Assembly: GCA_011322445.1 (NCBI GenBank)
Contig: DRMV01000031.1
Coordinates: 1 to 39,612 of the forward strand
Reading direction: 5' to 3'
DNA length: 39,612 bases
DNA from: Chloroflexota bacterium
GTDB taxonomy: Bacteria > Chloroflexota > Anaerolineae > Anaerolineales > DRMV01
Shown one piece after another: positions 1 through 3,242 of the stretch (position 1 is its first letter; each line of letters begins with the position of its first letter). Under the pieces are notes generated by a model. That model made no database searches and was not told the origin of the DNA. It saw only the letters and a list, made by a program, of their open reading frames with translations. Both the position numbers and the translations under genes were made by a program.

Positions 1-1212
1 ACTTCAGTTTAGCCCAGGCCGCTGCTCTGCGCAAGCACTTTTTGCCAGCCCGTTGGCGACAAATTCAAAAGCCCCTTGGCTAAGGGAAGCCCCTCGCCGC
101 TTTGACCAGCGCCTCAACCCCATAACCAGGCCGCGGCCTCAACGGCAGCTTCTGCCCCCCCCCTCAACTCGCGTTTGGAAAACCACCACCGCAAAAAAGC
201 CTCAGCCTCTCACTCGCCACCGCTTGCCAAAGCCTTGCCTTAGCCCCACTGCACCACAGCGGACAACAGCATCCCGACCAACCGGCTTCACCTCAATTGG
301 CAATGTGCCTCGCGGTCCAATCCGCCTGCCGCTCAATCGGCCTCGCCGCCGCTTGCCAAACCCTCCGCTTTCCCCACGCCCTGCGGCAAGCCCGCTTTGT
401 CGCGCCGTTCGCAGCCCCACCTGCCTCGGCGGATCCCACCTTTCTCCCTCGCGCCCAACGATTGCGTCAGCGGCGGGGCGTGTTTACCCAGCACCACGGC
501 TGGCGAATGCACCTCTGATTTTTTGCCGCCACGGTCACCGAGGGGCGCAGCCCCGTCCGCTGCACGCACGGTTAGGCCACGCCCCGCCTTGCCTCACCGG
601 CTTTTGCCAACTTTTGCCCGGCCTGATAGAGGTTTGGCCTTCACAAAGGTGTCTCGCCGACCATGCCCTGCACGGACTGGCAGAAGCCATCGGCTTTGCC
701 TCGACCTGCCCTCAGTTTAGCCCAACTCTGCGCTGCGCGCAACCACCTTTCGCTTGCCCGTTGACCAGCCCCTCCAAAAACTCTTGCGCCTCCACCCACT
801 CTTTACCTGCCACCGACAAGCACCAGCCAAGAGCACCCCTGCCGACAAACCGCACCTCGCTTGCCACGCAGCTTTTGCCCAACCTCCAAGCCGCAGCCTC
901 AACGATAGCCTCCGCCACGCGCTCACCACAACCTACCCAAGCCGCCTCTGCCAGTTTTGCCAAGACTCCAACACCTCTTCGCTTGCCCTCCGCTGGCCTG
1001 CGCCGATTTGCCACTTTTGGGGGACATAGTCACTTGCCCAACCAGCCCCACTTTGGCTTTTCAAGGTGCCTGCTCTTCAACTCGCCCGCCGCTCAACCCA
1101 ACTGCCCACGGCATGATCTGCCTTTTTGCCTTACACCGGCGGCCTGTGCGTGTCAGAATTTCTGCTTGCGACGGCGTTTTTTTCGCTTCTCGTTCTTCCT
1201 CGCTGACCTTTG
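1..1212 (-). other. Putative integron cassette region, gene-poor
   Basis: This 1.2-kb stretch lies on the far side of the attI-like site from the integron integrase, where cassettes belong. I see no convincing gene. Long open frames exist on both strands, but they are Pro/Arg/Ser-rich, overlap the attC site and lack ribosome binding sites. The plus strand is very C-rich. I count about 18 copies of TTGCC on the plus strand against 2 on the minus strand. The core-site word GTTGGGC/T occurs five times on the minus strand (720-726, 877-883, 1036-1042, 1096-1102 and inside the attC at 453-459). A related segment starting near positions 4 and 712 (CAGTTTAGCCCA) appears twice about 708 bp apart. The best explanation is an array of decayed or non-coding cassettes read leftward. 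A minus-strand GTG-started frame (712-1014, 100 codons) is the least bad cassette ORF candidate, but I do not call it. Confidence 0.55.
453..577 (-). other. attC recombination site (59-base element)
   Basis: On the minus strand the site starts with GCCTAAC (571-577, R'') and ends with GTTGGGC (453-459, R'), matching the RYYYAAC...GTTRRRY consensus. The inner arms are TGCGTCAGCGGCGGGGC (463-479) and the complement of GCCCCGTCCGCTGCACGCA (550-568). All 17 positions pair, leaving exactly two unpaired bases, both on one arm. Two extrahelical bases on one arm are the asymmetry that lets IntI choose the strand in known attC hairpins. The 70-nt centre (480-549) would form the variable terminal structure. 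The 125-bp length is within the known attC range. Orientation follows from the intI/attI layout. Confidence 0.85.
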
Positions 1213-1300
1213 GCCTAACGTCTGCTTCTCCCGCCCTCGCGCTTTATAACAACCAACTATGGAAAGATGATTGTGAACATTCCGCTTAAAAACCGGGGTT
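1213..1300 (-). other. attI-like primary integration site
   Basis: On the minus strand the sequence runs from intI to a GTTAGGC core (1213-1219) preceded by CAGAC, as in known attI sites, where cassettes join at G/TTAGGC. The core lies 225 bp upstream of the intI start and on its 5' side, the canonical integron layout. No long hairpin partner is present to the right, which distinguishes it from an attC. The accessory integrase-binding sites of attI are not conserved between integrons, so the right boundary is arbitrary. Confidence 0.6.
1243..1251 (-). promoter_or_regulatory. Candidate cassette promoter (Pc), extended -10
   Basis: The minus strand reads TGTTATAAA, an extended -10 (TGn plus TATAAA), 24 bp before the GTTAGGC core and pointing into the cassette region. 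The same TGTTATAAA word lies upstream of the SCP2 gene at 11252-11260. No good -35 is present at 17 bp. A second leftward candidate, TTGACT (1426-1431) with TAAGAT (1404-1409) at 16-bp spacing, overlaps the intI ribosome binding site. Confidence 0.4.
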
Positions 1301-1317
1301 CGGCTCTCCTGTAAGCG

Positions 1318-1326
1318 TGATAAAAT
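1318..1326 (+). promoter_or_regulatory. Candidate intI promoter, extended -10
   Basis: TGATAAAAT is an extended -10 about 118 bp upstream of the intI ATG. It sits inside a small inverted repeat (GTGAT-AAA-ATCAC, 1317-1329) that could be an operator. No clear -35 is seen, and I recognise no LexA box of the proteobacterial type. Confidence 0.3.
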
Positions 1327-1443
1327 CACCCCAAAGCGTCAAAAGCGGAATTCAGGCACCTTAAGCGCGGGAGATTAACTGTCCATTAACGCTACTTTAC
1401 CTTATCTTACTCTCTTTTGCTAAAAAGTCAAGGAGGCGACACC

Positions 1444-2430
<987 letters not shown>

Positions 2431-2453
2431 CCCCACCTCCGCAAGGAAAGCCC

Positions 2454-3242
2454 ATGCTCACCAAACGCATTATTCCCTGTCTCGACATTCGCGACGGCCG
2501 CGTCGTCAAAGGCGTTCACTTCGTCAACCTGCGCGACGCCGGCGACCCGGTGGAACAAGCCCGCCTCTACGACGCCCAGGGAGCCGACGAACTGGTCTTC
2601 CTGGATATTTCGGCCACCCCGGAAGGCCGTGCCACCACCGCCGACCTGGTTTCCCGCGTCGCCGAAGTCGTCTTCATGCCCCTGACGGTGGGCGGCGGCA
2701 TCCGCAGCGTGGACGACATGCGCCGCCTGCTGCTGGCGGGGGCCGACAAAGTCAGCGTCAACTCTGCGGCTGTGCGCACCCCCCGCATCCTCACCGAAGG
2801 CGCCGAGCGTTTCGGCGCACAGTGCATCGTACTCGCCATCGACGCCAAACGCGTCTCGCCTCCTCACGAACCGCCTCGCTGGGAAGTTTACATCAGCGGC
2901 GGACGCACTCCCACCGGCCTCGATGCCCTCGAATGGGCCGTGCGCGGCGTGGAACTCGGCGCGGGCGAAATCCTGCTCACCAGCATGGACGCCGACGGCA
3001 CCTTAGCAGGCTACGACCTGGAACTCACCCGCGCCGTCGCCGAAGCCGTGCCCGTGCCGGTCATCGCCTCGGGCGGGGCTGGGAAACCGGAGCACTTTGC
3101 CGACGTGCTGACCACCGGAAAAGCCGATGCCGCCCTCGCGGCTTCCCTCTTCCACGATGGTGTGTTGCGCATTCCCGATTTGAAGAACTACCTCGCGGCG
3201 CGGGGCGTCCCCATTCGCCCCACGGCCACACCCACTCCCTGA
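2454..3242 (+). CDS. hisF: Imidazole glycerol phosphate synthase subunit HisF
   Basis: HisF is the cyclase subunit of the cytoplasmic HisH-HisF complex. It joins ammonia to PRFAR, giving imidazole glycerol phosphate for histidine and AICAR for purine synthesis. The 262-residue (beta/alpha)8 barrel begins [11 protein letters not shown] and has both catalytic aspartates, D11 (CLDI) and D130 (AIDAK). It also has the phosphate-binding loops 'VGGGIRS' (near 80) and 'ASGGAG' (near 225). Length is slightly above the usual 250-258 because of a short Thr/Pro-rich C-terminus. The ATG at 2454 follows AAGGAAAG (2443-2450). An open frame extends upstream over intI in another register but is not coding. 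The gene lies 23 bp after intI and could be partly co-transcribed. No other his gene adjoins it; hisI and hisE lie 11 kb away. It meets the minus-strand gene at 3247 almost end to end. Confidence 0.95.

Follow-up and report, generated by a model that had tools for sequence, protein, structure and literature searches.

The closest described counterparts of the site reported here are VCR, from the Vibrio cholerae superintegron, and the attC(aadA7)-type sites of class 1 integron cassettes. VCR is a long attC site with a branched centre of 65 bp and three extrahelical bases, the first of which is a G on the bottom strand (PMC2727003). In classical attC sites this first extrahelical base is almost exclusively a G on the bottom strand, and in the attC sites that have been studied the choice of the recombining strand is set by the extrahelical bases (PMC2727003). 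Replacing the VCR centre by three bases altered recombination only about two-fold, and a G to C swap lowered integration only 2.7-fold (PMC2727003). The attC(aadA7)-type sites are ~60 nt long, have a short loop and carry two extrahelical bases separated by six pairs, the first being a C on the top strand. A set of attC models published in 2021 gave 11 taxa models of their own (PMC8352920).

We analysed a contig of 39,612 nt from a Chloroflexota bacterium of the order Anaerolineales (hereafter the window, i.e., the whole stretch of DNA under study) that carries an attC site of 125 bp at positions 453-577. Its top strand is the minus strand, and the plus strand is the bottom, predicted recombining strand. 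Read on the minus strand, the site consists of the R'' box GCCTAAC (577-571; GTTAGGC on the plus strand), a short unpaired spacer, the L'' arm (550-567), a centre (549-480), the L' arm (464-479), a second spacer and the R' box GTTGGGC (459-453; GCCCAAC on the plus strand), which harbours the predicted crossover point. Both boxes, as read from the sequence, match R''=RYYYAAC and R'=GTTRRRY exactly and in inverted orientation, and of the two spacers between box and arm, one measures 2-3 nt and the other 3-4 nt. An arm-pairing scan and folding showed that the L' arm, free of bulges on its own side, pairs with the L'' arm through three blocks, given here in plus-strand reading: 464-467 with 564-567 (4 pairs), 468-473 with 557-562 (6 pairs) and 474-479 with 550-555 (6 pairs). 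Adding T463-A568 brings the stem from 16 to 17 pairs. Two bases remain extrahelical, namely 563 (G on the minus, C on the plus strand) and 556 (A on the minus, T on the plus strand); both lie on the R''-L'' arm only, i.e., the 3' arm of the plus strand, with six pairs between them.

The boxes, 17 pairs, both bulged bases on the same arm and the centre of 70 nt had all been described in the initial annotation and proved correct base for base. It had also regarded the centre as large and possibly branched. Folding of the variable terminal structure (480-549, minus strand, exactly 70 nt) indeed predicts branching, while the size is not unusual next to the VCR centre and next to relatives whose whole sites measure 57-140 nt; the total length of 125 bp likewise falls inside the accepted range. 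Thus, the site resembles VCR in its length and in its large, branched centre (70 against 65), as well as in its R and L boxes, its unpaired central spacer and the placement of the extrahelical bases on the R''-L'' arm, but has two such bases instead of three and a C instead of a G as the first of them on the bottom strand. With the attC(aadA7)-type sites it shares the box logic and the six-pair gap, and it differs from them in its length, its larger centre and the G instead of C on the top strand. It is an ordinary, well-made attC site of a known kind.

To judge how readily such a structure arises by chance, we searched both strands of the 39.6-kb contig blindly for R''/R' boxes combined with arm pairing. 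This structural scan ranked the site first in the whole contig, with a score of 29.0 against 12.0 for the runner-up, and when the whole contig was shuffled 6,185 times with its dinucleotides preserved, 29.0 was reached twice. A profile was also made from the conserved letters of the two arms in 38 attC sites of other genomes, none of them from the window. Here, the site scored 38.5, the best of 6,654 shuffled contigs scored 31.9 and none reached the observed value; no second site passed in the whole contig. Both series bear out the earlier view that a chance origin is very unlikely. If the site were instead an intrinsic terminator, or an inverted repeat that pairs imperfectly by chance, in C-rich surroundings, this would be in keeping with the high GC content of the region and with a whole-site folding energy that, given the composition, is unremarkable (z -1.15 and -1.47). 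We nevertheless consider this reading highly improbable, given the profile shuffles, the homology of the arms to attC sites of another genome (see below) and, for a terminator, the lack of a T-run after the stem; arm homology and profile shuffles together refute it for practical purposes. An Rfam scan of the window returned no match.

Terminal inverted repeats of mobile elements can resemble attC-like repeats, and the site might on this ground be taken for the end of an unrelated element, such as an insertion sequence or a MITE. A DNA search of the genome for further copies of the region retrieved only the region itself, the boxes fit RYYYAAC/GTTRRRY exactly and the nearest gene encodes an integron integrase, all of which leaves this explanation with a negligible probability. 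The attC identity proposed at the outset holds on the grounds of anatomy, of arm homology and of the intact integrase nearby, which, like the orientation and the predicted fold, are results of our computation.

For comparison, attC sites were gathered upstream of integron integrases in other genomes. A blastn search of window positions 1-1443 against all loci fetched by then gave no matches other than the arms of two attC sites, both located upstream of intI in one genome of the same family. An attC site from genome G006 of the same order and family (L119:2012-2136) has arms nearly identical to those of the site in the window (GCGTGC.GCGGAC and GCCGCTGACGC.ATCGTTGGGC), and agrees with it in length (125), in the positions of the bulges and in its place relative to intI, whereas centre and cassettes differ. 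The attC sites upstream of intI in the relatives point away from the integrase, as does the site in the window. We further ran a fixed two-bulge template on 40 sites of the same order, including the site in the window and four prophage sites described below. It was passed by 37 of them, and the bulges lie six pairs apart in all but one of these 37.

A covariance model (R1), built from 38 attC sites with trimmed centres, assigned the site only 13.3 bits and set its 3' arm in the wrong place. R1 under-scores sites with long centres: two long sites whose arms were among its training set received just 16.0 and 16.9 bits, and because even these score low, we do not read the value for the site in the window as a negative result. 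The model suits short sites, to which the prophage sites belong (34-51 bits).

The first extrahelical base was then compared across sites. Among the 37 well-fitting sites of the same order it is a G on the top strand, and hence a C on the bottom strand, in 30, as opposed to 7 of 19 sites from other phyla, several of the non-Chloroflexota cases stemming from one genus, Salinisphaera; these are raw counts that ignore kinship. Since the G to C swap in VCR is of so little consequence, the bottom-strand C is a habit of the lineage and probably carries little functional weight. The survey within the order, in which the base is mostly C and its position hardly shifts, agrees with the low weight that published work assigns to the identity of this base.

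The cassettes run leftwards from intI, which makes the minus strand the top and the plus strand the bottom strand. By analogy with studied sites, the plus strand of the window is therefore predicted to fold and recombine; the minus-strand folding that the initial annotation had suggested concerns the functionally wrong strand. The best fold of the plus strand, calculated with DNA parameters, contains the attC stem. The attC fold has a predicted probability of 0.33 on the bottom and 0.52 on the top strand, which lies within the range of other sites (for the bottom strand, compare 0.49 for an aadA7-like site in locus L101). As both strands fold about equally well, folding energy alone selects neither of them.

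The integrase gene intI (1444-2430, plus strand) lies ~870 bp from the attC site and encodes an intact protein of 328 amino acids. It matches TIGR02249 with 459.9 bits (cut-off 265), contains the catalytic motifs and can be aligned over its entire length with V. cholerae IntI4 (2a3v, E 1.2e-94), the nearest solved structure. It is the sole integron integrase above the cut-off in its genome. In an integrase tree, it clusters with proteins from genomes of the same family, with that of G009 as its nearest neighbour, and the named integrases closest by identity come largely from Chloroflexota MAGs and in some cases from Proteobacteria. Judged by its integrase, the bacterium would belong to the Chloroflexota and be Anaerolineae-like. 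Chloroflexota hosts are also mentioned in a study on sul4 (PMC12772301). The gene hisF follows intI, and the same order is found in G003, a genome of the same genus. Over window positions 1444-3242, hisF is 89% identical to its counterpart in G003 (L029) and IntI only 66%, and the IntI of G009, which belongs to another genus of the same family, reaches 79%. Judging from these identities, the locus may have stayed in place while its integrase was exchanged for another.

Between intI and the attC site, a candidate promoter and an attI-type crossover sequence are found in canonical orientation. The lone GTTAGGC at 1219-1213 (minus strand), 224 nt before the start codon of intI, is the probable attI crossover; in G006 and G009, GTTGGGC/GTTAGGC occurs about 268 and 250 nt before the integrase match. 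Similarly, the element TTGACT-16-TAAGAT at 1431-1404 (minus strand), which reads into the array, is probably the cassette promoter Pc. One such element was found where 0.1 were expected, and a similar promoter-like element is present upstream of intI in G009 and G043.

The first cassette, delimited by the attI and attC crossovers (455-1217, minus strand), is ~763 bp long and contains one possible frame of 100 amino acids (712-1014, minus strand), for which a Pfam search gave no match. A second cassette (1-453, minus strand) runs off the end of the contig. Local alignment identifies it as a diverged copy of the first one, with a score of 88 against a maximum of 64 in 200 shuffles. The contig starts inside the array and includes one complete attC site. 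Since the second cassette is truncated at the contig end, its attC site would lie outside the contig. Both cassettes (window positions 1-1213) are C-rich and differ by many indels, with no reading frame in common. No recognisable gene was found in either by Pfam, and they may be non-coding or decayed.

These cassettes bear on the question of whether the attC site itself is a relic, once functional and now stranded in a dying array beside gene-less cassettes. Their divergence, their indels and the lack of a shared reading frame or a Pfam family would fit such a scenario, but a relic should have lost pairing, and boxes, 17 pairs, both extrahelical bases and the integrase frame are all intact. 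A decayed site is therefore unlikely in our view. Taken together, we conclude that the first cassette of a sedentary chromosomal integron almost certainly has its attC site at positions 453-577.

How this integron would operate can be outlined from studied attC sites, from which we infer single-strand recombination, strand choice and cut position. When the region becomes single-stranded, the bottom strand (plus strand of the window) would fold into a hairpin in which R'' pairs with R' and L'' with L'. The two extrahelical bases on the R''-L'' arm would mark this strand for IntI, which is predicted to cleave within the R' box and to recombine the site with attI (1213-1219) or with another attC. 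A cassette would thereby enter or leave so oriented that the promoter at 1431-1404 lies ahead of it. The integron may still be active today.

As one half of what would refute the attC reading, the initial annotation had named the lack of similar sites elsewhere in the genome; four attC sites were found on another contig (C8). They are short (57-60 nt), are associated with small cassettes and lie at 97133-98254 of that contig (L143:9134-10255), between replication genes (VapE-like, Prim-Pol) and the terminase of a prophage. The letters of their arms resemble those of the site in the window, and three of the four have a bottom-strand C as their first extrahelical base. No integron integrase above the cut-off was detected on contig C8. 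A gene for a DNA methyltransferase (phrog_954) occupies one of the prophage cassettes, and attC clusters carried by phages together with methyltransferases are already known (PMC9892861). Among 84 viral loci scanned, a single attC-like site was obtained (L159:5964-6017, IMG/VR contig IMGVR_UViG_3300027365_000029; 32 bits), which immediately follows a gene related to this methyltransferase gene.

The sequence AATAGTTGGGCG (L143:8982-8993), which borders the prophage array on its left, is identical to the probable attI crossover of G006 (L119). Judging from this match of 12 bases, the array could have been copied from an attI onward. The integrase frame of the prophage (L144:8441-9544) continues upstream into a stretch that resembles a translated tRNA gene (GRVAQLVRALPLQGRGRRFESCPAH). 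This putative tRNA gene suggests that the prophage integrated at a tRNA gene.

Our analysis adds a well-formed, long attC site together with an intact integron from a bacterial order outside the 11 taxa that have attC models of their own. The chromosomal integron and the resident prophage might, as a tentative reading to which we assign less than even chances, share one lineage-specific class of attC sites, and the host IntI could then move cassettes between the two. If this were true, the cassettes moved between chromosome and phage could include the phage DNA methyltransferase gene.
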